A stretch of 64,000 nucleotides of DNA. Source: Giesbergeria anulus (GTDB lineage Bacteria > Pseudomonadota > Gammaproteobacteria > Burkholderiales > Burkholderiaceae_C). The stretch covers positions 186,001-250,000 of the forward strand of contig NZ_FOGD01000001.1 in the NCBI RefSeq assembly GCF_900111115.1, given 5' to 3'. The notes beneath the pieces were generated by a model that did no database searches, was not told the origin of the DNA, and saw only the letters and a program-made list of their open reading frames with translations. The position numbers and the translations under genes were made by a program. Numbering within the stretch: the stretch's first letter is position 1; each line of letters starts with the position of its first letter. Of this stretch, positions 12,618-45,415 are shown in pieces.

Positions 12618-13582
12618 CAGCGGCCGCCCCGCAGATACTGTTCACGCTGCGCCTTGGGTAACCGTGCGAGGGCATCTTCCAGCTCTAGGCCACCTAGGCT
12701 ATCGAGCTGAGTGAACTCACCACCATTCAGATCAGTGTTCGCGTCATCAGCGCCGGGCACCTGTGCCAAGGTCTTCGGGGCCGTGTCCAGTGGTGTTTTG
12801 CGTGGCGTTGGTGCAGTAGCAGGCGGGGCAGCAGGTGCTTGGGCTGGAGCAGCAGTAGCCTTACCTAGGCGTTGCAGTACGTTCTTGTGGGCCTCAGCGT
12901 GGATTTGTGCCACCGATTTGCCAGCAAAGTCCGGATCGCCCGCCAGAAAATTGGCATACCGATCAAACATCGCCGCTTGCTTGGGATCGTTGTAGTCGAT
13001 CCCATCTGCCTTGGCTTGGACCATCACGGCAGTCAAAGAGGCGTTGATTTCTTGGTGCCGCGCCTGCTGCTGCATCTCGCGGGCAATCTCGGCCTTGGTC
13101 TGGAGCGAGGTCAGCTCGTTGAGCTGGGCGCTCAGGGCATCGCGCTCGACTTCGTATTGATCCACCTCGATCTCGCCAGTACGAAACTTCTGGCGCAACT
13201 CGGCCAGCTTGGTATTGACATCCTGCTGGCGTTCATTGAAATCGTCAGGCAGCACCACTTGGTACACCGGCGCGGGAGCCTTCGCAACTTCCACCACTTC
13301 AGCCGCTGGTGTGAGGGGAGCTGCCGGTGTATCGGCGGCAGGAGCCTCTGTCGTGGCATCAGGGGCTGGTGCTGGGTCTGTGGTGCCCGGCTCTTCGTTA
13401 CCCGATGGCGTGGGGGGCGTGTCGTCGTTCTCTTCAGCGGGGGCCATCGCCGCCAGCTTGGCCATGGCCGCTTTTTCATCGTCGCTGACATCACCATCCG
13501 TGATGGCTGCCAGCTCTTCGGGTGTCAACAAAGCCTTGTCTTGCTCAGACAGGGCGAATGCGTCAGGTGGGGTCGTGCTCAT
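12617..13582 (-). CDS. Phage scaffold protein
   Basis: 321 residues from ATG 13582 (the frame extends 14 codons further upstream, but GGAAACACACC before 13582 is a reasonable ribosome site). An acidic N-terminal half rich in Pro, Ala, Glu and Asp (residues 45-95) is followed by a coiled-coil region (residues about 105-170: ERQQDVNTKLAELRQKFRTG) and a second Ala/Pro linker. The C-terminus, SLGGLELEDALARLPKAQRE, may bind the capsid protein. This composition and the place just before the capsid gene are typical of internal scaffolds that shape the procapsid and then leave. Confidence 0.7.
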   Translation of the reverse strand: MSTTPPDAFALSEQDKALLTPEELAAITDGDVSDDEKAAMAKLAAMAPAEENDDTPPTPSGNEEPGTTDPAPAPDATTEAPAADTPAAPLTPAAEVVEVAKAPAPVYQVVLPDDFNERQQDVNTKLAELRQKFRTGEIEVDQYEVERDALSAQLNELTSLQTKAEIAREMQQQARHQEINASLTAVMVQAKADGIDYNDPKQAAMFDRYANFLAGDPDFAGKSVAQIHAEAHKNVLQRLGKATAAPAQAPAAPPATAPTPRKTPLDTAPKTLAQVPGADDANTDLNGGEFTQLDSLGGLELEDALARLPKAQREQYLRGGR

Positions 13583-13613
13583 GGTGTGTTTCCTACTTGT
13601 CCTTCCATGGCGA

Positions 13614-13633
13614 GACAATGCCATGCTTGGTGG
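13614..13633 (-). repeat. Copy B of 20-bp motif ahead of the scaffold gene
   Basis: Minus-strand sequence CCACCAAGCATGGCATTGTC, 19 of 20 bases identical to the copy at 19601-19620. It ends 31 bases before the scaffold start codon (13582), in a non-coding stretch. Confidence 0.6.
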
Positions 13634-13863
13634 TAGGCCGGCCCCGATACGGCATCAGAGTGCAGTTTGTGCCAACGCAAAGTGAGGGGGATGGTTATGC
13701 TTACACTGTCTTTGGGACACTGTTGCGGATTTCATCCGAAATTTTTTAAATTATCCTAAGTTGATGATGGCTATTAGAACCGGCTAATTGATGGATTAGG
13801 ATGCTGCTTATAAGATGGCCAATCTTAGTCAGATCACATGGAAATTGAGTGAAGGCAGACAGA

Positions 13864-14304
13864 ATGAAAGACAAAGAATTTAAGTATATGACCCATCCGA
13901 TGGGTGATCTTGTCATTGCCACACGGGGCAGTGAAGTGTCTCAGGGTTACAAGCCAGACGTAACTGTCGAAGATAAACAAGGGAATTTGAAATTCATCTT
14001 GGAGTTTGAACAAAAAACGGATAGAAAAGCATTCTTAGGCAGCTTGCTAAAAGCAGAAGTGCATGCAGAGCAAAAGCAAAAATCCCCGGAGCTCATAATT
14101 GTTATGAAACCATTTCGCAACACCACGACAAGGCAGATTGCCGATCATATTCGCCCATACAAGCAATGGCTGGAAAAGAAAAATTGTGGCAGCCTGAACT
14201 TATCGGCGATTCATGTCTTGTCCGATACCGAGTACCTCGAAGCAGCCGAAGCGAAGGATCAACTTGGAACCCCTGCATTCAAGAAAAGGGGCCACATTGT
14301 GTGA
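13864..14304 (+). CDS. Cargo protein with PD-(D/E)XK-like motif
   Basis: 146 residues from ATG 13864, preceded at eight bases by AAGG; a GTG five codons earlier is possible. It is on the plus strand within the minus-strand late region and has lower GC than its neighbours, typical of an independently expressed prophage cargo gene. KPDVTVEDKQGNLKFILEFE followed by QK gives a P-D...E-x-K arrangement resembling the core of PD-(D/E)XK nucleases, with a following Lys-rich helix (FLGSLLKAEVHAEQKQK). This could be a small nuclease or DNA-binding protein, but the match is only a motif. It converges on the next gene across a hairpin. Confidence 0.6.
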   Translation: MKDKEFKYMTHPMGDLVIATRGSEVSQGYKPDVTVEDKQGNLKFILEFEQKTDRKAFLGSLLKAEVHAEQKQKSPELIIVMKPFRNTTTRQIADHIRPYKQWLEKKNCGSLNLSAIHVLSDTEYLEAAEAKDQLGTPAFKKRGHIV

Positions 14305-14377
14305 GCTGAGACTTAACCCATTCTGTTTCAGGGGAAATATTCTTTCCAGCTACAGCCTGAACTCAGGGATTAAGACT

Positions 14378-14412
14378 GGAGCCAGTCCTAGGTAATCTAA
14401 GGAACTGGCTCC
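14378..14412. terminator. Bidirectional hairpin between convergent cargo genes
   Basis: A perfect 9-bp stem (GGAGCCAGT ... ACTGGCTCC), extended by CCT/AGG after a one-base bulge, lies between the stop codons of two converging genes (14304 and 14421). There is no long T-tract on either side, so termination would be by hairpin structure or factor-assisted. Confidence 0.55.
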
Positions 14413-14420
14413 AATCAGAA

Positions 14421-14972
14421 TCATCTATTACGAATGCTATCCAAAGCAAAATTTAGAGTCTGCGTATGCACTTCAACATATGAGCGAATACTATCAATAA
14501 ACCACGGAAGATTTTCGATAGCCATTACTCTGATTTCTCTAGCGCTATCCGAAACAGGAATTGGATTTTCCACGTCATCCTTAATTTTTCTAGCGCATGG
14601 AAAGTTGTTTGGCCAGTAGTAAACGACATTACCCCACGCATCTCGTTCATAGTCATAATCAGAGACGATCTTCCTGATCATTAATCTACCAGAACAATAA
14701 CCAAGCTGATACGCTACAATAGAGTAGGGCTGGGGTGGTGAATAAAGTGGCATTGCACCACGTTCGACAGGAAACCTCGGCGAAAGAAATTGCGGATGCC
14801 AGTATTCAATATTGAATTTTTGCAGGGATTTTTCCACATCTAAGAAGATGTGGTTTGTTTCGTCGAATTTGTTGTTGTAATTTGTCGTGGCCGCTTCGAG
14901 TTGGGCTATAGCGCCATAAATATCGTAGCGCTGCGCTTCATGAGCGTTATAGCTCAGCATTTCATTTATCAT
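14421..14972 (-). CDS. Cargo protein of unknown function
   Basis: 183 residues, low GC, not recognised. The sequence is rich in Tyr, Asn and Ile (for example QFLSPRFPVERGAMPLYSPP; DYDYERDAWGNVVYYWPNNF), mostly alpha-helical at both ends, and without signal peptide or membrane segment. It is convergent with the plus-strand cargo gene and separated from it by a hairpin terminator. Composition unlike the surrounding phage genes suggests separate acquisition. The promoter should lie in the AT-rich 190-bp gap to the right. A host-interaction or superinfection-exclusion role is possible but not shown. Confidence 0.6.
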   Translation of the reverse strand: MINEMLSYNAHEAQRYDIYGAIAQLEAATTNYNNKFDETNHIFLDVEKSLQKFNIEYWHPQFLSPRFPVERGAMPLYSPPQPYSIVAYQLGYCSGRLMIRKIVSDYDYERDAWGNVVYYWPNNFPCARKIKDDVENPIPVSDSAREIRVMAIENLPWFIDSIRSYVEVHTQTLNFALDSIRNR

Positions 14973-15163
14973 AATAAAAACCGTCCGTCAAGACAAAATT
15001 GCCACCATTCAGATGACATATTAAAAAATAACACTTTTTGCTAGGTTTTTACGTCAATAAAAATTAGCGGTTTTAATGTAACACAGACAATAATATCCAA
15101 CTAATTTTGTTAGGCAAGCTGTCCTTGCCTATGGATGTACTTCGACGTGACTTGCCGCGAACG

Positions 15164-16144
15164 TCACGCCAACATAGACCCCGCCCCACCCCCTAACCGC
15201 CGCGCCAACCGGTTAGTACAGGCTTGAGCCAGTCCCGCCAGTTCGGTGTTGCTTAACAAAAAGCCGGGGTCGTTGATGCAGTCGATGAGCTGGCGGGTGG
15301 AAGTGACAAACTCATCATGGCCCACCCGCTGGATGACGGCAGGGGAGGCCAGCTTGCTATCGGTAATGAATGAGAGCAGCCAGCGGCCAAACTTCCATTC
15401 ATCGTTGCCTGCCAACACCGATTCAAAGACGGCTTGCTGCACTTGGGCACTGGCTTGGGTGGCAGTTTGCATCGCGGCGTGGATGCGTTGCAAGTCCAGC
15501 ACCGGGGGCGTGGGGGCACCGCTATCGAACACCACACTATCGGCATAACCGTTGGGCAGCTTGCCCCGCAGGTAAGCGCACACCTCGTCGTACTTGGTGG
15601 CAGGCAGTTCCAAGTAGCTGTTGACCCGGAATTTGTTGTGCAGCCGGTTCCACGTCTCGCCGAAGGTTTGCACACCGGAATCGACTACCTGATGCACCAG
15701 TTCCTTGATGTCTTGGGCTTGGGCGGGGCTGATGCGGGTGTAGTCAATGGCAGGGTTGTAGGGGCGCTGGGTGGGGGCTTGCGGCTGCTTTTCTTGCCAT
15801 GCCTGCCAAAGCACGTCATCAGCCTCGTTCTGGAAGGCAATCACCTTCTCGCGCAACTCTGGCCGAACCTTGTTGGGACTGATGGTTGCAAGCCAACCGG
15901 GCAACTTACGCAGCGGCAGGCAGGACATACCTTGCTGGCCCCCTGCGGAAGGTATGGCGATTTCCACCATACCCCAGCGGCCTTTGTTTGTGGTCAGCTT
16001 CGCAAACTGACTTTTCCAGTCAAGCCCCATACCAGTCACAACAGGCTTCATCGGAACGTATGGCTGATGGTTGTGTTCGGTAACAACCAAGGTTGCTCCA
16101 TAGAATGCAACCTCGATAGTCTGTGTCTGGGTAGAATCGGTCAC
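15164..16144 (-). CDS. ant: Phage antirepressor, P22 Ant-like
   Basis: 326 residues from GTG 16144, chosen because AAGGA lies eight bases upstream and because the protein then begins just before the domain. Residues about 10-115 match the P22 antirepressor N-terminal domain (TIEVAFYGATLVV; PYVPMKPVVTGMGLDWKSQF; CLPLRKLPGWLATI; KVIAFQNEADDVLWQAW). Residues about 165-215 match its C-terminal domain (RVNSYLELPATKYDEVCAYL). In P22, Ant binds and inactivates the prophage repressor, so it can trigger induction of this or other prophages. Here it is in one operon behind an Arc-like gene and facing an Mnt-like gene, as in P22 immI. Confidence 0.85.
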   Translation of the reverse strand: MTDSTQTQTIEVAFYGATLVVTEHNHQPYVPMKPVVTGMGLDWKSQFAKLTTNKGRWGMVEIAIPSAGGQQGMSCLPLRKLPGWLATISPNKVRPELREKVIAFQNEADDVLWQAWQEKQPQAPTQRPYNPAIDYTRISPAQAQDIKELVHQVVDSGVQTFGETWNRLHNKFRVNSYLELPATKYDEVCAYLRGKLPNGYADSVVFDSGAPTPPVLDLQRIHAAMQTATQASAQVQQAVFESVLAGNDEWKFGRWLLSFITDSKLASPAVIQRVGHDEFVTSTRQLIDCINDPGFLLSNTELAGLAQACTNRLARRLGGGAGSMLA

Positions 16145-26062: not shown

Positions 26063-26090
26063 CTAGTCTAAATCTAGCTCATGTGTCTAG
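26063..26090. promoter_or_regulatory. Operators 2 and 3 of the repressor/cro region
   Basis: CTAGTCTAAATCTAG (26063-26077) is an imperfect copy of operator 1, beginning 22 bp from it. A half-site CTAGTT begins at 26087, 24 bp further on. Spacing of about two helical turns suits side-by-side dimers of the S24 repressor and the Cro-like protein. Confidence 0.65.
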
Positions 26091-26110
26091 TTTTTTGCTT
26101 GAATACGACT

Positions 26111-26890
26111 ATGACAATTGAAGACGTATGGATGAAAAACCTGGTAAGACTCGTTGAGTCACTGGGGCACGGCGACAAAAGGCGCGGATACCGCGAGGTC
26201 GCAGAAACAGCAGGACTATCTGAGGAGTACGTCTATCAGTTGGTAGAAGGAAAACCAAACAAAGATGGAGAGAGGCGCGTTGTCGGGAAAAGAGCTGCAA
26301 AAAAAATTGCCGCAGCATTTTCCGGTGGCCGCCCTCTTGAGTGGTTTGATATAGACCAGTTTTCTGTACCTGTTGATGCCAACAACAGCCTAGCCACCAG
26401 CAAAGGAGAAGTGGTCCCGCTGACCGCAGGGCCTAGGCTGATGCCCACGCCGATTGCGCTAGAAAACAACCCAGACTACCCAGCCGTGCGCCGGGTTCAG
26501 TTCAAGCTTTCAGCAGGTGCCACAGGCTTCGGCGTGGAGTACCGCGAAGAAGATGGTGCCCCCATCGTGTTTCAGCGCCAGTGGTATGAAGGCCGTGGCC
26601 TGCGCCCCGAAAAGCTGTTTGCCATCAAGGTAGCCAACCACAGCATGGAGCCGGGCTTGTTTGATGGCGACACGGTAGTCGTCAACACAGACAGCGTAGT
26701 GCCCAAAGATGGCGTAGTGTTTGCCGTCAATTACGAAGGCGAGATGGTCATTAAACGGCTGGCGCGTGACGGCGGCCAATGGTGGCTGTGCTCAGACAAC
26801 CCCGACCAGCGCCGCTACCCACGCAAAATTTGCGATGAGCACAGCATCATCATTGGTGAGATTGTGCATAAGCAAAGTGAGCGCATCTAA
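26111..26890 (+). CDS. S24/LexA-type phage repressor
   Basis: 259 residues from ATG 26111. The N-terminal domain (residues about 10-75) is an HTH region (YREVAETAGLSEEYVYQLVE). The C-terminal S24 peptidase domain carries the catalytic Ser in NHSMEPGLFDGDTVVV, the catalytic Lys in GEMVIKRLAR, and an Ala-Gly pair in KLSAGATGFG that could be the self-cleavage site. RecA-stimulated cleavage would induce the prophage. It faces the Cro-like gene over CTAG operators that also occur at 29495-29531. A -10-like TTGAAT ends six bases ahead of ATG, with no ribosome site, as for leaderless lambda cI mRNA. Confidence 0.85.
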   Translation: MTIEDVWMKNLVRLVESLGHGDKRRGYREVAETAGLSEEYVYQLVEGKPNKDGERRVVGKRAAKKIAAAFSGGRPLEWFDIDQFSVPVDANNSLATSKGEVVPLTAGPRLMPTPIALENNPDYPAVRRVQFKLSAGATGFGVEYREEDGAPIVFQRQWYEGRGLRPEKLFAIKVANHSMEPGLFDGDTVVVNTDSVVPKDGVVFAVNYEGEMVIKRLARDGGQWWLCSDNPDQRRYPRKICDEHSIIIGEIVHKQSERI

Positions 26891-26937
26891 TAATCATCAA
26901 ATATTGATTTAAATAAATATTTAATTAGGATTTGGTC

Positions 26938-27303
26938 TTGCGGTTAAAATTATTTTTTATATTTCTTATCGCACCCGAGTTAGCATTTGCTAGAGATAGT
27001 AGCGGTGCCTTCTGGGCACTTCTATCATTTCCATTAGCTATTATTTTTTCTGGCCTGATCTCGACTATGCTTGATCACAACGGAAGACATAGTCTAGGTT
27101 CATTCTTAATAGGTTTATTTCTGGCCTATCCAATAATTCTATGGATTGGAAATTGGGTATTCAAATTAATTTCTTATCAATTTAAAGAAATTACAAAATC
27201 TATTCCAGAGTGGATGGTTTGGGTTATTTTAATTTCTCTTATTAAGGTATTAAGCATAATCATTGATTATTGCAAAAGAAAAAAGGATAAAAAATGGGGT
27301 TAA
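26938..27303 (+). CDS. Small membrane protein beside the repressor
   Basis: 121 residues, low GC, from a TTG at 26938 (AGGA seven bases upstream; an in-frame TTG at 26932 is too near it). An N-terminal signal-like segment (LKLFFIFLIAPELAFA, cleavage possible before RD) is followed by three hydrophobic segments (SFPLAIIFSGLISTML; SFLIGLFLAYPIILWIGNWV; WMVWVILISLIKVLSIII) and a Lys-rich tail. No family is recognised. It overlaps the next gene by ten bases and follows the repressor closely, so it is probably expressed in the lysogen. A superinfection-exclusion or membrane-effector role is an inference from that position. Confidence 0.65.
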   Translation: MRLKLFFIFLIAPELAFARDSSGAFWALLSFPLAIIFSGLISTMLDHNGRHSLGSFLIGLFLAYPIILWIGNWVFKLISYQFKEITKSIPEWMVWVILISLIKVLSIIIDYCKRKKDKKWG

Positions 27304-28130
27304 TAAAAAGAGAAAAAGTGCTGATCTTGGCGAAGACACATCCATCACCAAGTGCTCAATATATGGAAACATCCTGCATAGCAGGTATCAATGAAGACGG
27401 GCTAATGCGCCGATTGTATCCTGTGCCATTCCGAATGCTCGGAAATAATCAACAGTTTAAAAAGTGGCAATGGATTGAAGTACAAGTGGAAAAGGCTATC
27501 GGAGACCACCGAGCTGAAAGCCACAAAATTTACATTGATTCGATTTCTTGCGGCGATATTATATCGCCCAAGAATGAATGGAAATTACGTCAAATTTGGA
27601 TTGAAAAAATCCCAATTCTTAAAAATTTTGACATTCTAAATATGAAGGTATTTAATGATGGGCCTTCAATTGGTTTATTAAAGCCGAAAGAAATTATTAA
27701 ACTGGAAATTACGAAGTCCAGAAATCAAGACTGGACAAAAGAAGAAAAAGAAAAACTTGTGCGCTCGCAAATGCAGGGGAATTTCTTTTCCGAATTTGAC
27801 GCAACGAAGCAAGTACGAGAACTACAGAAGATTCCTTTTGATTTCTACTATCACTACACTTATGATTCGCCAGAAGGTGAAAAATCTTATAAAAATAAAA
27901 TTGTTGATTGGGAAGCTGGCGCTTTATTTTGGAACTGTCGTGCCAGTCACGGAATCAATTGGGAAACTCCATTTAGAGATAAATTAGAGAGCCATTTCTC
28001 AGAAAAAAGAGACTTGATGTTTCTTATGGGAAATCAGCATAGATTCCAAGATCAGTGGCTCATCATTAGTCTGATCTATCCACCTAAGCAAATGCCATCT
28101 GAGACAGAAAATCAGTGCCTACTTTTTTGA
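27294..28130 (+). CDS. Unknown lysogeny-region protein, possibly dual-OB fold
   Basis: 278 residues, low GC. The first 45 residues (KVLILAKTHPSPSAQYMETS, then CIAGINEDGLMRRLYPVPFR) recall the start of 'dual OB-containing' proteins, which have an ILAK...C.AGI...G...R layout. The middle is beta-rich with charged helices (WTKEEKEKLVRSQMQGNFFS). The C-terminus has DFYYHYTYDSPEGEKSYKNK, DWEAGALFWNCRAS and MFLMGNQHRFQDQWLIISLIYPP. Proteins of this type are, to my knowledge, found with DUF488 proteins, which is exactly the neighbour here: the two genes converge and overlap by 47 bp. The function is unknown; a nucleic-acid-binding role is inferred. Confidence 0.65.
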   Translation: MGLIKREKVLILAKTHPSPSAQYMETSCIAGINEDGLMRRLYPVPFRMLGNNQQFKKWQWIEVQVEKAIGDHRAESHKIYIDSISCGDIISPKNEWKLRQIWIEKIPILKNFDILNMKVFNDGPSIGLLKPKEIIKLEITKSRNQDWTKEEKEKLVRSQMQGNFFSEFDATKQVRELQKIPFDFYYHYTYDSPEGEKSYKNKIVDWEAGALFWNCRASHGINWETPFRDKLESHFSEKRDLMFLMGNQHRFQDQWLIISLIYPPKQMPSETENQCLLF

Positions 28131-28572
28131 TGGTGGCAGTAGCTTTAATATGCTTTATTTCTGCACCACAAAAGTCCCGAACTGCATTTGCTACCATCGA
28201 ACGATGGCAAAAATTGGAATCGGCTTCGTAACACAGTAGAGCACAGTTCATTCCATGTACTAAGCCAGATAGGTTGGCTATTGCAGACTTTTGTAGCTTC
28301 AAGTGCTCCATAAAACCAATGGTGTAGCGTTTCCAGTCACCGTCTACTCGGTACTGATCCCGAACTAATTTGGGACACCCCAAAGTCACCATGTGAATGT
28401 ACTCACGACCAGAAATATTCAACACGTTAGCCAACGCCCTTTTCGAAAATCCCGGCTTGCGCGATAAAGGCAATTCTCGGACGTCTACAATAGCCTCGAT
28501 CTCATACGCAGCGAGCAAGGACATAAACGTATCAATGTCCAGTCCTTCATAGCCTATAGTAAAAATAGTCAT
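28084..28572 (-). CDS. DUF488 family protein
   Basis: 162 residues. The family pattern is clear: TIGYEG at the start, IEAIVDVRELPLSRKPGFSK, a LGCPKLVRDQY segment, and ALLCYEADSNFCHRSMVANAV with the conserved C...E...CHR. DUF488 proteins are suspected nucleic-acid-modifying or binding enzymes but have no established activity that I know of. A good ribosome site (AAGGGGTG) precedes ATG 28572. A near-palindrome (28605-28626) containing TATAAA-like boxes in the upstream AT-rich DNA may control it. It converges with and overlaps the unknown gene to the left, which suggests a functional pair. Confidence 0.85.
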   Translation of the reverse strand: MTIFTIGYEGLDIDTFMSLLAAYEIEAIVDVRELPLSRKPGFSKRALANVLNISGREYIHMVTLGCPKLVRDQYRVDGDWKRYTIGFMEHLKLQKSAIANLSGLVHGMNCALLCYEADSNFCHRSMVANAVRDFCGAEIKHIKATATIKKVGTDFLSQMAFA

Positions 28573-28782: not shown

Positions 28783-29082
28783 TCAAGTTGTCACCAGCTC
28801 ACGCAGTATTTCGGGGTGCGCTTGGGCAACGCGCATTAGGGACTGAGCCGCCCCAGAGGGCTGTCTGCGCCCCTGCTCCCATTCTTGCAGCGTGCGTACA
28901 CTTACCCCCAGCAGCTTGGCAAATGCGGACTGCGAAACCCCCACCTTGGCCCGCGCCTGTGCTGCAACTGTCAGGGTGACGCGATGCACACGCCCCTCTC
29001 CACGTTTGGCCTGCTGAATCGACTCCAGCACATCATTGGCAAACGCCTGCATTTCAGCGTCCATCTTCACGGTTTTAGGCAT
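28783..29082 (-). CDS. higA: HigA-like antitoxin
   Basis: 99 residues from ATG 29082 (three codons later than the longest frame). KVGVSQSAFAKLLGVSVRTL followed by QEWEQGRRQPSGAAQSLMRV is an Xre-type helix-turn-helix close to the C-terminus; an acidic N-terminal part (MDAEMQAFANDVLESIQQAK) probably wraps the toxin. It follows the RelE-like toxin gene with an eight-base overlap, the toxin-first order of higBA. It would neutralise HigB and repress the operon. It helps retain the prophage or may serve in anti-phage response. Confidence 0.85.
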   Translation of the reverse strand: MPKTVKMDAEMQAFANDVLESIQQAKRGEGRVHRVTLTVAAQARAKVGVSQSAFAKLLGVSVRTLQEWEQGRRQPSGAAQSLMRVAQAHPEILRELVTT

Positions 29083-29386
29083 CGTAAGCATCCTTCCACA
29101 TCTTCAGAACAGCGGCGGGCATATTGTCGAATTTGGCTTTGGCATAAATAGCCACCAACACCACCTCACCATGAGCCAGTCGCGTGAAGTAAATCACGCG
29201 CCCCCCACCACGCTTGCCCATGCCAGCGCGGCCCCAGCGCACCTTGCGTAGGCCATCTGCACCGGGAATGACATCGCCCGCCAACGGGTTGCCAGCAATC
29301 CACTGAATCAGCAACTGGCGATCAGCATCGTTAAGCACATCTGCCACCATGCGCTGAAAAATGGGGGTTTCTATCACGGTAAGCAT
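29075..29386 (-). CDS. higB: HigB/RelE-like toxin
   Basis: 103 residues from ATG 29386. Typical RelE-superfamily features are QRMVADVLNDADRQLLIQWI, NPLAGDVIPGADGLRKVRW and GKRGGGRVIYFTRL, followed by VVLVAIYAKAKFDNMPA. Such toxins cut mRNA on the ribosome. A perfect TATAAT (minus strand 29399-29394) ends seven bases before ATG, with no room for a ribosome site, so leaderless translation is predicted. The pair lies between the repressor-side cargo genes and the second operator cluster. Confidence 0.85.
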   Translation of the reverse strand: MLTVIETPIFQRMVADVLNDADRQLLIQWIAGNPLAGDVIPGADGLRKVRWGRAGMGKRGGGRVIYFTRLAHGEVVLVAIYAKAKFDNMPAAVLKMWKDAYDA

Positions 29387-29393
29387 AGGCAAC

Positions 29394-29399
29394 ATTATA
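29394..29399 (-). promoter_or_regulatory. -10 box of higBA
   Basis: Consensus TATAAT on the minus strand, seven bases ahead of the higB start codon. No clear -35 box is seen 16-18 bp upstream, so an activator or weak basal activity is possible. Confidence 0.55.
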
Positions 29400-33773: not shown

Positions 33774-34847
33774 ATGCCACCGCATCTATCCCCCCAGATT
33801 TACAAAGCCTTGGCCGCCGTTTCTGCCTGCATTGGCCTATCTTTCAGCGCAGTCACCGGGCATTTCTTTGTTCTGGGTTTGCAGCGGATGGAGCCTAATG
33901 AAACTGCCCGTGATGCACTGGCGATTGCAGGGTTGCTGATGATTGCCGCAGAGGTTGCAGCATTTTTCATTGCAGCCCTACTACCCATCAAAATTATGCG
34001 GTCTTTGCGCTGGCTTCTACTGGGTATGGGCCTGCTACTGGTGATTTTTGAAGCCGTCACGGTATTTGCCACCCAACAGGTATTAGTGCAATCGAGTGAA
34101 GCCAGTCGGGCCGGTACGCAAGCCCGCATTGATTATCTGCACAGCAGTATTTCTAAAGCCCAGCAAAGCGCGATTGCCATGCGCCAAACGGCCCAAGAGC
34201 AGGTGGGCAGCCGCTTTATCAACCAACGCCAAGACGGTGCCCAGCTTTTGCAGTCGGCCCAAGCTCTGGAAGCACAAGCCGACGCCCAAGCGCTAGAGCT
34301 GGCACGGTTGCTGGCACAGCAGCAGCACACTTTGGCGCAGGCACTTGGGCACCACGGGGTGTTGGCCTACAGCACAGCCCGAGCAGTGCTCATGAGCATT
34401 ACAGGTCTGGTGATGATGAGTACAGCGGGTGTGCTTCTGCGTGCCAACTGTGCCAACCGTGCTGTGCCAGATACCGTGCCAACCGTGCCAGCACAGTCAA
34501 AAACCACCGTGCTCTCCTCTGTAGAAACCGTGCCAACTGTGCCTGCCAGTACCGTGCTCCCAGAAGCACAGCAGCACAGTCCTGTACTTGAGCCAGTTGC
34601 GGTACCGGCCACCGAAATCCCCAGCACGCCCACCGCCACCGACCAGCGGTATGCCAAGGTGCGGGCCGCCGTGTTGGGTGGCATGAGTCCGAGCGTGCGG
34701 GCTATTCAGGAGTTAGTAGGAGGCAGCACGGGGACGGCGCGGGAATTGCAGGCAAAACTACTCGCTATAGGATTAATTGAAAAATCTGGAAAAAGTTATA
34801 AATCAGCACATACTCCTTTAAGTCAAAGATTCCAAGAAAGAATCTAG
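33774..34847 (+). CDS. Membrane protein with C-terminal DNA-binding-like domain
   Basis: 357 residues. Three or four membrane segments (about 10-35, 48-70, 78-100 and, after a coiled coil, 200-222) surround a helical region (IDYLHSSISKAQQSAIAMRQ; QALEAQADAQALELARLLAQ). The last 70 residues (YAKVRAAVLGGMSPSVRAIQ; ELVGGSTGTARELQAKLLAI) have a winged-helix/HTH look. The linker between them carries TVPTVP repeats, whose DNA contains three 15-bp direct repeats partly in different reading frames. It may tie DNA to the membrane. No named family. The 3' end becomes AT-rich, like the neighbouring cargo gene. Confidence 0.6.
   Translation: MPPHLSPQIYKALAAVSACIGLSFSAVTGHFFVLGLQRMEPNETARDALAIAGLLMIAAEVAAFFIAALLPIKIMRSLRWLLLGMGLLLVIFEAVTVFATQQVLVQSSEASRAGTQARIDYLHSSISKAQQSAIAMRQTAQEQVGSRFINQRQDGAQLLQSAQALEAQADAQALELARLLAQQQHTLAQALGHHGVLAYSTARAVLMSITGLVMMSTAGVLLRANCANRAVPDTVPTVPAQSKTTVLSSVETVPTVPASTVLPEAQQHSPVLEPVAVPATEIPSTPTATDQRYAKVRAAVLGGMSPSVRAIQELVGGSTGTARELQAKLLAIGLIEKSGKSYKSAHTPLSQRFQERI
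34440..34543 (+). repeat. Three iteron-like 15-bp direct repeats inside a CDS
   Basis: CGTGCCAAC(T/C)GTGCC occurs at 34440-34454, 34475-34489 and 34529-34543, with extra CCGTGC half-copies between and after. The first copy is read in a different frame (RANCAN) from the other two (TVPTVP), so the conservation is at DNA level rather than only protein level. Confidence 0.6.
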
Positions 34848-34974
34848 TTTTTAAATTCATTAATGGCATATGAAATTTATTTCGAAAAAATCACCGCTAC
34901 GAAACAATGTTACTGCAATTTCGTATTTATTTACTTATTATTCAATACATTTAAATGGTGGCAAATTATTTATA

Positions 34975-36057
34975 TCACATATGCTTTTTCAACGCCCTAA
35001 TCAAGGCAGATTCTTCAACACCAATTCGCATATCACCTAATTGGCTCTCACCTATACGGCGCATCTCTTCTCTTGCAATTTTTACAGACGTTGGCTCTAA
35101 GCCTTTTACAAGATCAGCGATCGCTGCTCCTCTAGTATTAGTCGATACGGTTGGCATACCAACCGTGTTAAGCTGTCGAAGCTTATCAATCTCCGCATAC
35201 AGAGATCTAACTTTTTCTTTGCTACTAGCATCCTGCTTCTTGAATTCATCAAGATCAGAAACCATATTCTTTATCTTCTCCAGAGCTTCTTCCTTTTCTC
35301 TATTGGCGCATGTGATCGCTGCCTCAGATTCTTGCAAAGCACCAGTAAGCTCCCGCACGAACGTACCCATCTCATCTGCACTACCCGCAAGACGATTGAA
35401 GATAGCAAGAAAATATGAAACAAGCTGATTGTCTGAAAAATTAGGATACCTTACACGGTGATCAATTTCACTCCAGGCTTCTTCAAAGATTGTTCTAACC
35501 TGAATCTCAGCGTACACCATTCTCTGCATCGGTTGGGTCACACATACGTAATGGACTGATCGATATCCGGCGGGATGTTCCTTGACTTCAAAACCTAGCT
35601 CGGAGAACCTCTGCCCTAGGTCAGCCGGATCCCCTTTCCTTACGTAGGCAATCGGATCTTCCGCAGTAGCCCAAGTGTTGCGGAGATGCCTGTCGATTGA
35701 AAAGCAGTCCTCCTTAAAGAGGTGCAGTGCCCTTAGACCCACTAAATCAGTAACCACTTTAAAGTAGTTCGATGGATCTATAGACGCATACTTTTCCTCT
35801 CCTGCCGCTCGCTTCCGAACAATTTTTTCCATCAAATGTTCGGTGTCCTTGATTCGCCAACGGACAGAGTGAACTCCGATGAAGCGTTGTATGACTCGAG
35901 CAAACAGTTCTGCAGAGTCACGTAGGTAATCGGACTGCCTATCGTGATCCTCGGCTATGGCCTGAAGTTGCTCCCATGACAAACCGCTCTTTTTCCAATC
36001 ATCTGTATCAATGCTGTTACGAATCAGGAATTCATCTAGTGTGGTTGATTTGTCCAT
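34975..36057 (-). CDS. RelA/SpoT-type alarmone synthetase domain protein
   Basis: 360 residues, low GC. Residues about 70-235 match RelA/SpoT synthetase folds: VRWRIKDTEHLMEKIVRKRA (G-loop region with basic residues), FKVVTDLVGLRALHLF (the D-L-x-G-x-R metal-binding strand), HPAGYRSVHYVCV (GYxSxH) and MVYAEIQVRTIFEEAWSEID (catalytic Glu in EIQVRT). These key residues are intact, so (p)ppGpp/(p)ppApp-type pyrophosphate transfer is plausible. No HD hydrolase domain is present. The last 120 residues are a coiled coil plus a small helical tail. It lies as a lone minus-strand gene between phage recombination and excision genes, like prophage-borne CapRel/FaRel-type defence or toxin synthetases. Confidence 0.8.
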   Translation of the reverse strand: MDKSTTLDEFLIRNSIDTDDWKKSGLSWEQLQAIAEDHDRQSDYLRDSAELFARVIQRFIGVHSVRWRIKDTEHLMEKIVRKRAAGEEKYASIDPSNYFKVVTDLVGLRALHLFKEDCFSIDRHLRNTWATAEDPIAYVRKGDPADLGQRFSELGFEVKEHPAGYRSVHYVCVTQPMQRMVYAEIQVRTIFEEAWSEIDHRVRYPNFSDNQLVSYFLAIFNRLAGSADEMGTFVRELTGALQESEAAITCANREKEEALEKIKNMVSDLDEFKKQDASSKEKVRSLYAEIDKLRQLNTVGMPTVSTNTRGAAIADLVKGLEPTSVKIAREEMRRIGESQLGDMRIGVEESALIRALKKHM

Positions 36058-39111: not shown

Positions 39112-41262
39112 ATGGACTTGAATGACGCATTGCACACCTTTTTTGATGAGAGCCGGGGCCTGTTGGTGGACATGGAGGCGGCACTGATCCACCTAGAGCA
39201 GACGCCCAATGATCCCGAAGCCATCAATGCCGTGTTTCGTGCTGCCCACACCATCAAGGGGGCAGCGGGTATGTTCGGCCTTGATGATATTGTGTTGTTC
39301 ACGCACCATTTAGAAACCCTACTGGTGCTGGTACGCGAAGGCACCGTACCCCTGAGCAGTGACCTGATTGGCCTGCTGCTGCAAAGTGGCGACCATGTCG
39401 GCCACCTGCTCGATGCCATGGCAGCTGGTGGTTTGCGCAGCGACACCCTACTGCACACCGAGCACCAATTGCTGGCGCAACTGCAACGCGCCTGTGGCAG
39501 TACCAACGGCGCCATAGAGGTAGCTTCGCTGCCCAAAATAGATTTCAATACCCCTGAGAGCCTCAACAGTGACGAGCTTTGGCACCTGTCTCTGCGTTTT
39601 TCTCCGACGGTAATGCAGCAAGGTTTTGAGCCGGCCTCCTTCATCCACCATCTGCGCACGCTGGGACGCATCGTCCAAATCAGCACCCTGACGCATGCGC
39701 TGCCCGCCTTGAGTGAGATGGACCCAGAATGCTGCTATCTGGGCTTTGAGATTCGCTTTGCCAGCCATGCCAGTAAGAGTGAGATCGAGGGCATTTTTGA
39801 GTTTGTCAGTGACGATTGCCAGTTGCGTATTCTGCCCCCCGATAGCCGGGTGGAAGATTATTTGCGCCTGATTGATGAACTGCCCGCCGACCGAATGCGC
39901 TTAGGAGAAATTCTGCGGGCCTGTGGTGCCCTGACCGAGCAGGAATTGCAACGCGCCCTACAAGAGCAGGCCGAGACCCCCCAAGAGCACCAGCCCTTGG
40001 GGGCCATCCTGATCGAAGAGCAGGCCGTTCAACCCGAACTGGTGCAGGGCGCTATTGGCCGCCAAAACGAACTGCGCCAACGCCAAGCCCAAGAAGCCAA
40101 GCTGATCCGCGTGCATTCGGACAAGCTCGATACCCTGATTAACCGGGTGGCCGAACTCGTCATTGCCAGTTCTGCCGTGGGCGTGCTGGCGCGGCACAAC
40201 AAAGATCGCTCTATGCGCGAGGCCGCCTCGATCGTCTCGCGCCTGACCGAACAGGTGCGCGATGGTGCCATGATGCTGCGCATGGTGGAGATTGGTGAGA
40301 TCTTTAACCGCTTTAAGCGCGTGGTACGTGATGTGTCTAAAGAAACGGGCAAAGAGATTGAACTGCACATTGGTGGTGCCGAGACCGAGCTGGACAAAAT
40401 CTTGGTCGATAAAATTGCCGACCCTTTGACGCATCTGGTGCGCAATGCCATTGACCACGGGATTGAGCTACCAGCTGTGCGCTTGCAGCGCGGCAAAACC
40501 GCCGTGGGGCGCTTGGATTTGCGTGCCTCCCATGAGGCTGGGGTAATTGTGATTGAGATGTCCGACGATGGCGCGGGTCTCAACCGTGAGCGCATTTTAG
40601 CCAAGGCAGTGCAAAAGGGCCTGATTGCTGCTGATGCCGAACCCAGTGATGCCCAAATCTGGGAGCTGATTTTTGAGCCGGGGTTTTCTACCGCAGAACA
40701 GGTTAGCAACCTGTCTGGGCGTGGTGTGGGCATGGATGTCGTCAAGCGCAACATCGAGGCACTGCGCGGCAGTATTGACATTGAAAACCGCCCCGGTCAT
40801 GGCGCTACTTTTCGCATCCGTCTGCCCTTGACGTTGGCTATTATTGATGGATTCTTGATGTCGGTCAGTGACTCCAATTATGTTGTGCCTTTGGATGTAG
40901 TAATTGAGTGTATCCATTTGGCACCTGATGCCAAAAATTATGTCAATCTTCGGGGTGAAGTGCTGCCGTTGCTACGCCTACGACAGCATTTCCAATTAGA
41001 AAAACGTGATTTACGCCGTGAAAACGTGGTGGTAGTACAGGTGGGTGGGCGCAAGATGGGTCTGGTGGTAGACCAACTCAAAGGAGAACTGCAAGCGGTG
41101 ATTAAGCCGCTGGGGCCTTTGATTGACGGTTTACCCGGTATTTCTGGTTCTGCCGTGCTGGGAACCGGAGAAATAGCGTTGATGCTAGACATACAAGAAT
41201 TGATTCATCAAGCATCTCACACGGCGGTAGATTATGCCAAAATGGCAATCACAATCAAATAA
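39112..41262 (+). CDS. cheA: CheA histidine kinase
   Basis: 716 residues. P1/HPt with His46 in FRAAHTIKGAAGMFG; a region at about 265-325 (RLGEILRACGALTEQELQRA and LGAILIEEQAVQPELVQGAI) that looks like a GspE-N/MshEN-type helical repeat, unusual inside CheA; dimerisation helices (KLDTLINRVAELVIASSAVG); HATPase with N-box HLVRNAIDHGIEL, G1 DDGAGLNRERI and G2 GRGVGMDVVKRNIEALRGSI; and a C-terminal CheW-like domain. No receiver domain. It autophosphorylates under control of the MCP and CheW encoded downstream. No cheY or cheB lies in the window, so its partner must be elsewhere. Confidence 0.93.
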   Translation: MDLNDALHTFFDESRGLLVDMEAALIHLEQTPNDPEAINAVFRAAHTIKGAAGMFGLDDIVLFTHHLETLLVLVREGTVPLSSDLIGLLLQSGDHVGHLLDAMAAGGLRSDTLLHTEHQLLAQLQRACGSTNGAIEVASLPKIDFNTPESLNSDELWHLSLRFSPTVMQQGFEPASFIHHLRTLGRIVQISTLTHALPALSEMDPECCYLGFEIRFASHASKSEIEGIFEFVSDDCQLRILPPDSRVEDYLRLIDELPADRMRLGEILRACGALTEQELQRALQEQAETPQEHQPLGAILIEEQAVQPELVQGAIGRQNELRQRQAQEAKLIRVHSDKLDTLINRVAELVIASSAVGVLARHNKDRSMREAASIVSRLTEQVRDGAMMLRMVEIGEIFNRFKRVVRDVSKETGKEIELHIGGAETELDKILVDKIADPLTHLVRNAIDHGIELPAVRLQRGKTAVGRLDLRASHEAGVIVIEMSDDGAGLNRERILAKAVQKGLIAADAEPSDAQIWELIFEPGFSTAEQVSNLSGRGVGMDVVKRNIEALRGSIDIENRPGHGATFRIRLPLTLAIIDGFLMSVSDSNYVVPLDVVIECIHLAPDAKNYVNLRGEVLPLLRLRQHFQLEKRDLRRENVVVVQVGGRKMGLVVDQLKGELQAVIKPLGPLIDGLPGISGSAVLGTGEIALMLDIQELIHQASHTAVDYAKMAITIK

Positions 41263-41274
41263 GAGAGGTGTTGC

Positions 41275-42927
41275 ATGTTGAATAATATTCGCATTGGCCT
41301 GCGCATGGGTCTGGGTTTTTTGCTAGTAATTTGTGCCACTATGACTATGGTGGTCGTGTTGCTGCTCGAATTAGAAAAATTTAATGATGAAATGCAAACA
41401 CTGGTGGATGGTCGCTTTCCCAATGTAGTTTATTCTAACGCGCTCATTGACAATCTAAACAGTGCAAATTTGTCTATGCGTGACATCTTGCTCACGCAAG
41501 ACCCTGCTGTAATCAAAAATGAAATAGAAAAAATTTCTGTTATCCGGAAAAATTTTACTGAAGCTTTGGTGAAGTTAGATAAAAACACTCAATCGGAAGA
41601 AGGAAATAAATTCCTTTCCCGCATCAAAGAGAATCGCGTTCATTATGGAAATGGCTTAGAAAAATACTTAAAATTAGTTGGAGATAATAAAAGAGAAGAA
41701 GCCTTGGTGGTTTTGCAGGGAGAACTGTACTCTGCCCAAGTTCCTTACCAAAAAAGCATTGAAGAGATGATTGATTTTCAGAGTAAGTTGGTGGAAAAGG
41801 CCGGAGGTGATGCCAATACCAGTTTTCATGCCGCTGAAAAACTGATGCTAGGGTTGTCTATAGGTACTACGCTGCTGGCGCTGCTAATTGCCTTTGTGGT
41901 TACCCGTAGCGTGATACGCCCGCTTGCACAAGCCACCAATGTAGCCAGTTTACTTGCTGAAGGCGATATCAGCGTAAAAATGGATGTACAGGGCCGCGAT
42001 GAGGTAGCGCAATTGCAAGAGGCTATGAGCAACATGGTCGATAAGCTCTCGCATATCATTACTAATGTTCGTGCCACCTCTGATAGCCTTTCCAGTGCTT
42101 CAGAAGAAATATCAGCCACTGCCCAATCGCTATCACAGGGTGCTACAGAACAAGCTGCTAGTGTGGAGGAAATTTCTTCTACCCTTGATGAGACCAGTGC
42201 CTCGGTGCAACAGAACTCCGAAAATGCTGTCATTACCGACAATATGGCTACCCAAGCCGCTGCCGATGCCAGCCAAGGCGGCGATGCCGTCAACCAAACG
42301 GTTCAGGCCATGAAAAGCATTGCCAACAAGATTGGCATTATTGACGATATCGCCTACCAGACCAACCTGTTGGCACTCAACGCAGCCATTGAGGCTGCAC
42401 GGGCGGGTGAGCACGGCAAGGGGTTTGCTGTGGTGGCCGAAGAGGTGCGCAAACTGGCCGAACGCAGCCAAGAAGCTGCCCAAGAGATTGGCGAGCTGGC
42501 AGGCAGCTCTGTAGCACAAGCTGAACGGGCTGGTAAGCTGCTGCAAGACATGGTGCCCACCATTCGTAAAACCTCTGATTTGGTGAAAGAAATAGCCGCA
42601 GCAAGTCAAGAGCAAAGTAGTGGTGTGGGGCAAATCAACGCCGCTGTGGGACAACTGAACCAAACCACGCAACAAAGCGCCTCCGCTAGCGAGGAGCTCG
42701 CCGCTACGGCCGAAGAAATGAGTTCGCAAGCAGAACAGCTGCAACAGTTGATGTCGTTCTTCAAAATCAACGCGACTGAAATGAGCACAGCCAGCAAGCC
42801 GCCAAGCAACCACCACTATCAGAGCAAACAGCCTACTAAGTTTGCCAATAAACCACTGCAGACTATACCTGCACGGCGTAACTTGGCTGTTAAGGGATCA
42901 CCAGGGGCGGACTTTGTCCGTTTCTGA
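41275..42927 (+). CDS. Methyl-accepting chemotaxis protein
   Basis: 550 residues. TM1 at about 8-30 ([20 protein letters not shown]), a periplasmic four-helix-bundle sensor domain (about 31-190), TM2 at about 193-215, HAMP, then the signalling domain with the conserved tip [20 protein letters not shown] followed by [20 protein letters not shown]. The C-terminus has no NWETF-type pentapeptide. Base composition in the sensor part is more AT-rich than in the signalling part, common for receptors that exchange sensor modules. Ligand unknown; signals to the adjacent CheA. Confidence 0.93.
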
Positions 42928-42934
42928 AAGGCCG

Positions 42935-43480
42935 ATGGTGATACCAAGCACTGCACTGGCGCAGCAAGGCCAAGGGGCTGCATTGATGTTAGGACACAGC
43001 GGCCCGAAAAAACACTTAATTTTTACCCTTAATGGCGAGGTTTATGCGATTGCCATTGATCAGATCCGAGAAATCATTGGATTCCGTTCACCTACTATTG
43101 TGCCGATGATGCCTAGTTATTTGCGTGGCATCATCAATTTACGCGGTATGGTGGTGCCGGTACTGGATTTGGCTTACCGTTTTGGCCTAGCACCCAATCC
43201 GGTAGGAAAGCGAACTTGCATTATAATATTGGAGCTTCCTTTGCATCCGGATATGCCAGAACAGCATTATATGGTTGGCTTAGTAGTGGATATGGTTAAT
43301 GCAGTTCTGGATATTTCTCCTAGTATGATAGAGCTTGCGCCCAGCTTTGGTGTCAGTATACGACCCGAATTTTTGCACGGCATGGCAAGAATCAAGGAAA
43401 AATTTATTTTGCTATTAAATTTGCAACGGGTAGTTGCACTTGATGAGTTAAATGCACTACGTTCAATTTCTGATAAATAA
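42935..43480 (+). CDS. cheW: CheW adaptor
   Basis: 181 residues from ATG 42935 (AAAGG just upstream). FTLNGEVYAIAIDQIREIIG, YLRGIINLRGMVVPVLDLAY and RTCIIILELPLHP.MPEQHYMVGLVVDMVNAVLDIS are typical CheW strands. It couples the MCP to CheA. It starts seven bases after the MCP stop. Longer in-frame versions would overlap the MCP gene and are unlikely. Confidence 0.92.
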   Translation: MVIPSTALAQQGQGAALMLGHSGPKKHLIFTLNGEVYAIAIDQIREIIGFRSPTIVPMMPSYLRGIINLRGMVVPVLDLAYRFGLAPNPVGKRTCIIILELPLHPDMPEQHYMVGLVVDMVNAVLDISPSMIELAPSFGVSIRPEFLHGMARIKEKFILLLNLQRVVALDELNALRSISDK

Positions 43481-43504
43481 GTCTGATTCTGTATTAATTT
43501 TGGC

Positions 43505-44368
43505 ATGGCAATAAAATATACAAAATGGGACAACAGAAATAAATCTGCCAATTTGTTGTTGTCTGACCATGATTTCAATAATTTTCGGCACTGGATCTTT
43601 GAGATATCTGGTATATCGATGGGGCCAAGCAAAAAAGCTTTAGTGGCCGGGCGCTTGGCACGCCGTGTTCAACATCATGGCTTGCGTAGTTTCCATGCTT
43701 ATTTTGATTATTTGCACCATGACACAGCAGAACATCAGATAGCGATTGACTTACTAACCACCAACGAAACCCATTTTTTTCGCGAGCCACGGCATTTTGA
43801 ATTGTTGCGTGATGTGGTATTGCCAGAATACAGCCAAACGCAAAAGATGCGCATTTGGAGTGCAGCCTCTTCTACGGGGCAAGAGGTGTATAGCATTGCG
43901 ATGGTTTTGGCCCATGTTTTAGGCCAAGAGCCTTGGGAAATTCTAGGTTCTGATCTTTCCACCAAGGTGCTAGACCAAGCCTGCTCTGCACTGTATGACA
44001 TCTCTATGGCACGAGAAATACCAGACCTGTTTTTGCGCAGTTTTTGCCTGAAGGGCGTAGGTGCTCAGAACGGGCGGTTTTTGATTGCCCCTGAAGTGAC
44101 TTCACGGGTTCGATTTGCGCAAGTTAATTTGAACCAAGATTTACCCAATGTGGGGGAATTTGATGTCATTTTTTTGCGCAATGTGCTGATCTATTTTAAT
44201 GAAGATACCAAACGCGGCGTGATAGACCGGCTACAAAAAAAACTCAGGCCGGGAGGCTGGTTTTTTGTCGGTCATTCTGAAAGCCTTCATGGCATCCATC
44301 CGGCACTCGAATCCTATGGTTATTCGGTGTATCGCAAACGCATGGCATCTGCCACCCCTAAGGTCTGA
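43505..44368 (+). CDS. cheR: CheR methyltransferase
   Basis: 287 residues. The N-terminal helical domain (NNFRHWIFEISGISMGPSKK; ALVAGRLARRVQHHGL) is followed by TTNETHFFREPRHFELLRDV, the SAM-binding IWSAASSTGQEVYSIAMVLA, and FDVIFLRNVLIYFNEDTKRG with LRPGGWFFVGHSESL. It methylates glutamates on the MCP. No cheB methylesterase follows, so demethylation must come from another locus or be absent. Confidence 0.93.
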   Translation: MAIKYTKWDNRNKSANLLLSDHDFNNFRHWIFEISGISMGPSKKALVAGRLARRVQHHGLRSFHAYFDYLHHDTAEHQIAIDLLTTNETHFFREPRHFELLRDVVLPEYSQTQKMRIWSAASSTGQEVYSIAMVLAHVLGQEPWEILGSDLSTKVLDQACSALYDISMAREIPDLFLRSFCLKGVGAQNGRFLIAPEVTSRVRFAQVNLNQDLPNVGEFDVIFLRNVLIYFNEDTKRGVIDRLQKKLRPGGWFFVGHSESLHGIHPALESYGYSVYRKRMASATPKV

Positions 44369-44380
44369 GAGGTCTACATC

Positions 44381-45415
44381 ATGCAGCACCAGCCCCCCAC
44401 AGGTTTGGCCGTGTTTCAGCAATGGCGACAGGCACAAAGCAGTACCCCTTCGCGGCGGCTGGGAGCCAACCCCCTAGAGGTGTACCAAGATATCTGGAAC
44501 GCTTGGCTTGAGAGCTTGCAGCCCCCAGTGCCAGCATACCCCAGTGATAAACCACTCCCGCCAGCCTGTGAATGGCATCAAGCTCAGGCCGAAGACGTGG
44601 CGCATTTTTTGCGTATCCGGGCTGGCCAGCGTGCCCACCACCAACCCCAGCGCCAGCTCAGTGAAGTGACGCGCCGACGGTACTGGCGGGTGCTCGATCG
44701 AGTTTATGCCTACGCGGTGCAACAGGGCTGGATGACCACCAGCCCGGTGATGGAGTTGCCCAAGACTGAACGCCCTAAGGTGGTCGATCAACTGGGCCAT
44801 TGCTTGCCACCGTTTCTGTGGGCGCAGCTACCCGCCCATTTTCCGGCCAGCGACTGTTTGCAAGGCGCACGGGATCGGGCTATTTTGCTGCTGCTCTACG
44901 AGCTGGCACTGGCCCCAGAGGAGGTGCGCACCTTGCGCGATGATGGCCTGCTCGATGACAACCGGATGCTGGTGTCTGTGACGTCGGAGGCCGTGCCGAC
45001 TGCCTTGCGTGTCGAGGGCGCACGCAAGGCACAACAGCGCATTTTAAGTGTGCCCCCGCCATTGGGGATCGCCCTGATGGATTGGCTGCGTTATCGCCAC
45101 GCCCATGACCCCACATTGGCCGGCGGCTTGTTATTCCATTCCCGCAAAGGCGGACGGCCTCTGTCTATTCGGGCGCTGTTCCATGTGGCCTCCAAGGTCA
45201 TCCATGAGGCCCACGCTGCCCAGCCCGCCACCGCGCAAACCTATCCACTGCAACGGGTGGGGCCGCAGGTGATGCGCAATACGGCAGTAGTCACTTGGTT
45301 GCGCGCAGGAATGAGCGAAGCCGAAGTGGTCCGGCGCATTGGCGTCGATGGCGTGCGTGCGTTAGATCATTTACGCCACCAAGTGGCTCTACGAGAGCCT
45401 GTATCCGACACCTGA
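44381..45415 (+). CDS. Degenerate tyrosine-recombinase-like protein
   Basis: 344 residues. Fold features of phage integrase/Xer proteins are present: a SAM-like domain (VTRRRYWRVLDRVYAYAVQQ) and a catalytic-type domain (ARDRAILLLLYELALAPEEV; GGLLFHSRKGGRPLSIRALF; VGPQVMRNTAVVTWLRAGMS). The active site looks broken: the first Arg of the G-L-R motif is Ala in LALAPEE, the HxxR motif reads Q-V-M-R, and no Tyr lies in the expected final place (VDGVRALDHLR). It follows cheR by 12 bases. It may be a DNA-binding regulator derived from a recombinase. Confidence 0.7.
   Translation: MQHQPPTGLAVFQQWRQAQSSTPSRRLGANPLEVYQDIWNAWLESLQPPVPAYPSDKPLPPACEWHQAQAEDVAHFLRIRAGQRAHHQPQRQLSEVTRRRYWRVLDRVYAYAVQQGWMTTSPVMELPKTERPKVVDQLGHCLPPFLWAQLPAHFPASDCLQGARDRAILLLLYELALAPEEVRTLRDDGLLDDNRMLVSVTSEAVPTALRVEGARKAQQRILSVPPPLGIALMDWLRYRHAHDPTLAGGLLFHSRKGGRPLSIRALFHVASKVIHEAHAAQPATAQTYPLQRVGPQVMRNTAVVTWLRAGMSEAEVVRRIGVDGVRALDHLRHQVALREPVSDT

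Follow-up and report, generated by a model that had tools for sequence, protein, structure and literature searches.

A DUF488 protein and a predicted tandem OB-type partner form a near-obligate pair, the candidate phage-defense system PDC-M19, beside a prophage repressor of Giesbergeria anulus

The stretch of DNA analyzed here (the window) comprises 64,000 nucleotides of Giesbergeria anulus contig NZ_FOGD01000001.1. It contains an island of three reading frames, at 26932-27303 (+), 27294-28130 (+), and 28084-28572 (−), all of which are open. The gene directly upstream (26081-26890, +) encodes an S24 CI-like repressor (PF00717, E = 6.5e-20; phrog_4, E = 6e-29), so that the island does adjoin a prophage repressor, as an earlier note on this DNA had stated. 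The first island gene encodes a small membrane protein and overlaps the second by 10 bp. The second, which begins at an ATG with AAAGGA ahead of the start codon, encodes a 278-residue protein that we call B, and the third, on the opposite strand, encodes a 162-residue DUF488 protein that we call A. The 3′ ends of B and A converge, and their coordinates confirm the antisense overlap of 47 bp (28084-28130) that had been described. The protein B is also found, at 100% identity, in the 56.9 kb IMG/VR viral record IMGVR_UViG_2597490351_000002.

The island has a GC content of 38.1%, compared with 55.1% for the window, which places it in the lowest 0.4% of equal-sized window stretches sampled at a step of 50 bp. 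It overlaps the window minimum (37.4%, for the stretch starting at 26851), and the low GC content noted earlier holds gene by gene, with 32.0% for the membrane gene, 37.5% for B, and 44.0% for A against 53.8% for the repressor gene. Further low-GC stretches, mostly between 0.43 and 0.49, occur at about 3000-5500, 13500-15500, 34500-36000, and 41000-44500 and may be additional cargo islands. On its 3′ side, the island is followed by two genes (28783-29395, −), one Xre-like and the other with a RelE match below the cut-off, neither of which was matched in a PADLOC search at 1e-5. We rejected both as parts of the module; no relative of the RelE-like protein turned up next to another B, and the Xre-like protein has a single match (E = 1.2e-7), 2 kb from B, at one locus (L119).

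Both A and B belong to families that are already catalogued. B, which had been called unrecognized, matches PADLOC PDC-M19B (PDLC04508, E = 7.9e-58) and PHROG 25907 (phrog_25907, E = 2.6e-47); it falls in no Pfam or NCBIfam family, its one Pfam hit being at chance level. A is a secure DUF488 protein, as first thought (PF04343, E = 1.4e-23, 84.2 bits against a gathering score of 22.2), is also above the cut-off for PF22751 ("Active DUF488-N3", 33.2 bits), and matches PADLOC PDC-M19A (PDLC04505, E = 2.8e-32). Because both proteins match PDC-M19, and do so side by side with overlapping ends, the window pair is an already-catalogued candidate phage-defense system of a 2023 database and not the undescribed system that the earlier note had proposed. 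Matches to M19A and M19B were likewise obtained for the Sulfolobus and Gordonia members discussed below. The only difference found between the window pair and PDC-M19 is that window A (matching positions 150-292 of 294) has no counterpart to the first ∼150 residues of the longest M19A profile. PDC is short for phage defense candidate (PMC12429752), and such candidates are described as mostly unvalidated and found by guilt-by-embedding (PMC12988326). The string PDC-M19 appears to be absent from the literature text searched, and no titles or abstract openings retrieved for DUF488 with defense and phage, with rhodanese, or with operon and DNA repair dealt with the pair; nor did the literature searched, as far as its text was accessible, contain experimental work on it.

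The earlier note had named co-occurrence of the 278-residue family with DUF488 elsewhere as one test of its proposal. Relatives of B were always gathered with B as the query, giving 208 loci in total. B is present in 15 of 399 host-family genomes and 10 of 398 host-phylum genomes, with its own genome counted in both; viral contigs gave 14 loci with the window protein as the query and 90 places in a profile search, 80 of which were kept; the best 80 of 482 B places in GTDB genomes were kept; 7 phage records, all of the Nymphadora group, contain B (one fetched), as do 23 plasmid records (nine fetched). At 203 of the 208 loci, an A frame overlaps B or lies ≤66 nt from it, with frames taken from stop to stop, and therefore start-codon distances can be larger in the co-directional pairs. 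The two genes are convergent at 137 of these loci, co-directional with A upstream at 65, and co-directional with B upstream at 1. The remaining loci are L111, where A lies 1.5 kb upstream, and four that end 0-62 nt past B at a contig edge. Some of the 208 loci are one place counted twice, and when only distinct B genes are counted (n = 182), A is adjacent to 178, 1.5 kb from 1, and cut off by the contig end in 3; the two families thus co-occur with hardly an exception, and the proposal passes this test. An antisense overlap of 44 or 47 bp (stops included) is present at 86 of the 137 convergent loci and cannot be essential because the co-directional group has no such overlap.

The pairing also holds when A is the starting point. 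With A as the query, matches are found in 57 of the 399 host-family genomes, and the 14 best places (E = 2e-108 to 1.5e-27) all adjoin B and cover all but one of the 15 genomes that have B; the exception (G268) retains only residues 8-86 of B and a fragment of A. DUF488 hits below these places start at E = 8.8e-16, and no B was found at 16 of them that were fetched with ∼1.5 kb on each side (roughly 3.4 kb in total). The B-linked DUF488 proteins are therefore a distinct, top-scoring group within the family in these 399 genomes, and they differ at the site as well, with a majority form C[FY]EADxxxCHR compared with CAEAVWWRCHR-like sequences in most of 17 unlinked DUF488 ORFs. Co-inheritance was assessed on 168 sequence-distinct pairs out of 192 of sufficient length. 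In the 109 convergent pairs, the tree distances of the two proteins have a correlation of 0.80, where the largest value from 200 permutations is 0.20; the correlation is 0.67 within the 59 co-directional pairs and 0.59 over all pairs. Parsimony requires at least four changes between the convergent and co-directional orders, and adjacency is kept throughout. Away from contig ends, B is broken beside an intact A at five distinct loci, the reverse is seen at one, and both are fragmentary at one, counts that are to be read with the greater length of B in mind and with several loci coming from metagenome assemblies, so that some breaks may be assembly errors. Because relatives of both proteins reach archaea, the two frames are more than chance ORFs. 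The pairing of A and B is near-obligate, the two are inherited together, and each has invariant polar residues; we regard it as almost certain that they are a functional two-protein unit.

The membrane gene does not share this history. A 19-residue hydropathy scan shows about four hydrophobic stretches in its product, in agreement with the four segments seen earlier, and the product is probably 121 residues long (start at TTG 26938) rather than 123, because of the spacing from AGG to this second TTG. Apart from the window's own copies, no relative was found beside B at any of the B loci, and viral contigs, phages, and plasmids yielded none except in its own prophage record; the 399 family genomes gave, besides its own, one marginal 27% match containing a stop. 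The membrane protein (26938-27303, +) is thus a near-orphan. As a third component it was rejected, as it is absent beside other B genes and the A/B pair persists without it, and the three-gene unit of the earlier note gives way to a conserved unit that, judged from these comparisons, consists of two genes, with the membrane gene (26932-27303, +) outside it.

In a 69-row alignment of A, residues D30, R32, C114, E116, C122, H123, and R124 are invariant. The conserved C...CHR picked out earlier is thus part of an invariant CxE-x5-CHR, which we take to be the DUF488 active-site motif and which is also present in 16 of the 17 unlinked ORFs. DUF488 is a widespread family for which we know of no established reaction. 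The AlphaFold2 model of A (pLDDT 94.1) places C114 at the end of a predicted core strand, and we read its alternating strands and helices as a Rossmann-like order. Structure hits are weak (E ≥ 6.6e-3), with GPN-loop GTPase in the first four positions followed by tetrapyrrole-methylase-type enzymes and diphthine synthase; a tyrosine phosphatase appears at rank 50 (E = 0.14). The arrangement of C114 with R124 ten residues on would bear some resemblance to the nucleophile-arginine loop found in cysteine phosphatases. In their work on the rhodanese-phosphatase superfamily, Burroughs and Aravind reportedly proposed that DUF488-type enzymes process DNA ends in conflict systems.

Some relatives of A carry additional domains. 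On the Sulfolobus islandicus plasmid pSOG1, A is a ParB_N-HTH_ParB-DUF488 protein encoded directly upstream of B (L034:3936-5861), and in Streptomyces canus, it is an HTH-DUF488 protein with an Xre-type HTH. An archaeal ParB-fold fusion described as DUF488-HTH is reported to bind CTP (PMC12704722) and, if it is a B-linked A, may link the module to CTP clamps. Twelve long A proteins (11 from viral contigs and 1 from a genome; L157, L160, L167, and similar) share an alignable N-terminal region of ∼160 residues. The SocA_Panacea antitoxin domain matches 5 of these 12 at E ≤ 0.1, all below the Pfam cut-off (best 4.4e-4), and we treat this as a lead only because one of the 12 matches an implausible family at 2.9e-4. 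Fewer than 40 residues precede the DUF488 domain in 147 of the 204 A proteins counted.

The AlphaFold2 model of B (73-row alignment, pLDDT 91.2) suggests a tandem OB-type protein with two OB-like barrels, in keeping with the dual-OB protein that the earlier note had thought possible. The top Foldseek hits are RPA filaments, human CST, Pyrococcus RPA, and the p205/p204 HIN domains, with 11 chains at E = 3.8e-5 to 8.6e-4. The TM-scores are low (query-normalized 0.21-0.36 at E ≤ 0.001, with a maximum of 0.39 among the 50 hits listed), and the assignment of two OB barrels therefore draws on the strand order together with the Foldseek hits. The family DuOB (PF22557, dual OB-containing domain), which shares the OB-type fold prediction, is matched at E ≤ 0.1 by 8 of 73 relatives in the B alignment, with a best value of 3.4e-5; window B itself gave no hit to it, the Pfam gathering score was not reached, and window B is a divergent relative of DuOB at best. 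Residues P17, E25, C28, A30, R40, P43, D71, R73, E75, D205, W206, E207, and G246 are invariant in B, and this polar set would suit binding or catalysis. Searches by sequence for solved relatives of B or A returned chance-level hits only.

Carriers of the pair include viral contigs, plasmids, and chromosomes, in bacteria, archaea, and phages. Its distribution is patchy, with 15 of 399 host-family genomes and one of five same-genus genomes having it (the window's own counted in both), and the pair from a Pseudomonas plasmid, used as a DNA query that reaches only about 65-70% identity, had no match in E. coli. Among 130 neighboring genes at genomic loci, Pfam families recur at most 4 times and the listed PADLOC families at most twice. 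Scattered defense-type hits (GajB-like, RT-helicase, pAgo, methyltransferase) do occur among them, part of which may be ordinary UvrD helicases, and they do not by themselves establish an enrichment beside known defense genes. On a conjugative plasmid of Pseudomonas sp. CIP-10, a HEPN/Toprim-associated protein is encoded directly beyond A (L032:7452-8747), and a copper-resistance cluster lies on the other side of the pair.

A position beside a repressor recurs in Gordonia phages. In Nymphadora, repressor gp44 is followed by B gp43, convergent A gp42, metalloprotease gp41, gp40, and integrase; gp44 and gp43 share 1 bp, and gp42 (L036:4822-5274) matches PF04343 at E = 1.2e-29, though the records annotate it as "HipA toxin". 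The related phage WelcomeAyanna (92.6% identity over 92% of the integrase-region query) has the same metalloprotease and integrase and the same layout of repressor (gp43), same-strand gene (gp42), and convergent partner (gp41) (L214:1848-3715), but the pair there is a different one: gp42 is a GMT-wHTH protein annotated as a methyltransferase, with PDC-M30A as its best match, and gp41 is a DUF5131 protein that matches PDC-M41B and M30B about equally well. The slot of Sahara holds two other small genes without a family, and that of Agueybana holds different genes again; neither A nor B was found in the stretch examined of any of these three phages. Altogether, 116 records have a match to some part of the integrase-region query, 36 of them covering at least 80% of it, and the pair is present in 7 of the 116, which represent 5 phages. 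The Gordonia slot resembles a cargo site at which one candidate system is exchanged for another. The three relatives of the window repressor besides its own record also have different genes alongside the repressor, with no A or B in the 10.4-10.6 kb around them.

This location is not a general rule. That the pair always lies beside a repressor was not supported: a repressor or integrase (from a small set of eight queries) lies within 3 kb at 4 of 76 distinct viral loci, 2 of which are the window's own prophage and, apparently, Nymphadora, whose proteins were among the queries, and genomic neighbors are mixed. A repressor-adjacent slot of the kind the earlier note described, with its content swapped, is seen in the Gordonia phages, as one of many placements of the pair. 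Its comparison with rexAB holds for the position beside the repressor and for nothing beyond that position. CarolAnn gp43/gp44, Sbash, and lambda RexAB are among the nearest known parallels. In CarolAnn and lambda, defense cargo lies next to the prophage repressor or is expressed together with it (PMC6426606); the window membrane protein, for its part, falls outside the conserved unit. We rejected CarolAnn gp43/gp44 as a homologue, as CarolAnn is absent from the seven phage records with B or A.

We lean toward immunity against other elements as the function of the pair. The fuller proposal, to which we give an even chance, is that PDC-M19 would be a two-gene anti-phage or anti-mobile-element cassette carried as prophage cargo, in which B delivers A to nucleic acid; it is favored because of the near-obligate pairing, the mutual dependence, the mobility, the cargo-slot position, and the database status of the two genes. 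We infer every step past the pairing itself. B, as a tandem OB-type protein, would bind the nucleic acid of an incoming or replicating element where it is single-stranded or has exposed ends, and would bring A there. A, as a Rossmann-like cysteine enzyme, would then act on this nucleic acid, most likely at DNA ends, through a Cys-dependent reaction of the phosphate or sulfur type, so that the invader could no longer be replicated, repaired, or packaged. Elsewhere, A could reach its target by way of a module fused to it (in Sulfolobus, ParB plus HTH; in Streptomyces, an Xre-type HTH; and in further lineages possibly a Panacea-like module). Nucleic acid is favored as the target because of the fold of B and the fusions of A, and chemistry by A because of its conserved Cys, His, and Arg; chemistry on nucleic acid (DNA ends) by A with B as its guide is plausible, at somewhat less than an even chance. 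A promoter scan was at chance level (5 found versus 5.1 expected). B lies on the same strand downstream of the repressor gene, which is a possible source of lysogenic transcription, and B could be expressed in the lysogen, while A reads from its own start on the opposite strand.

The pair could instead serve the maintenance or repair of its own mobile element, through end protection, recombination, anti-restriction, or partition. The ParB-type fusion directly upstream of B on the Sulfolobus plasmid, the presence of the pair on plasmids and phages, and an OB-type fold typical of replication and repair proteins all agree with such a role. We nevertheless consider it unlikely, as the annotated Gordonia phages have the pair in a variable slot rather than in the replication module, most relatives of the carriers lack it (see the integrase-region records above), and it is also present on chromosomal contigs, which may include prophages.

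An addiction pair of the toxin-antitoxin kind, with one partner harmful and the other neutralizing it, and with the N-terminal HTH or Panacea-like modules of A elsewhere acting as regulator or neutralizer, would account for two small genes carried by mobile elements, for the HTH on A in Streptomyces, and for the "HipA toxin" annotation of Nymphadora gp42; the SocA_Panacea matches, near noise level, point the same way. Antitoxins often survive alone. Here, no orphan B was seen where the locus left space for A, and the 399 genomes showed no unpaired A of the B-linked type. Because either gene can be found broken (assembly errors may account for some cases), neither surviving partner looks lethal, and the absence of orphans together with these breaks weakens this explanation. 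A also retains enzyme-type residues, and most A proteins have little N-terminal room for such a module. We regard it as improbable.

A three-gene RexAB-like exclusion unit with the membrane protein as effector, which would draw on the adjacency to the repressor, the gene overlap, and the precedent of CarolAnn gp43/gp44 (a membrane protein with four predicted segments and a partner, co-expressed with a repressor; PMC6426606), is very improbable, as a conserved membrane effector partner of B was found nowhere outside the window's own copies, viral contigs, phages, and plasmids included, with one marginal match in 399 genomes, and the A/B pair persists without it.

New here, beyond the database entry, are the evidence that the pairing is near-obligate from either side, the exclusion of the membrane gene, the ParB and HTH domains fused to A next to B, and the natural experiment that the Gordonia phages provide. 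A more tentative extension, which we would not call likely, is a new biochemical class of immunity shared by bacteria and archaea. In such a class, an OB-type sensor with a HIN-200/RPA-like fold would recognize foreign or replicating DNA ends, a DUF488 cysteine enzyme would add or remove an unusual end group, and interchangeable DNA-loading modules (a ParB-type clamp, an Xre HTH, or a Panacea-like module) would be borne by the enzyme across lineages. Nymphadora and its kin, which are fully sequenced, infect the laboratory host Gordonia terrae 3612, and are related to phages without the pair, offer a direct test ground. For the DUF488 family, the analysis ties one subgroup to a single partner across bacterial and archaeal elements and removes a misleading third gene from the candidate module.
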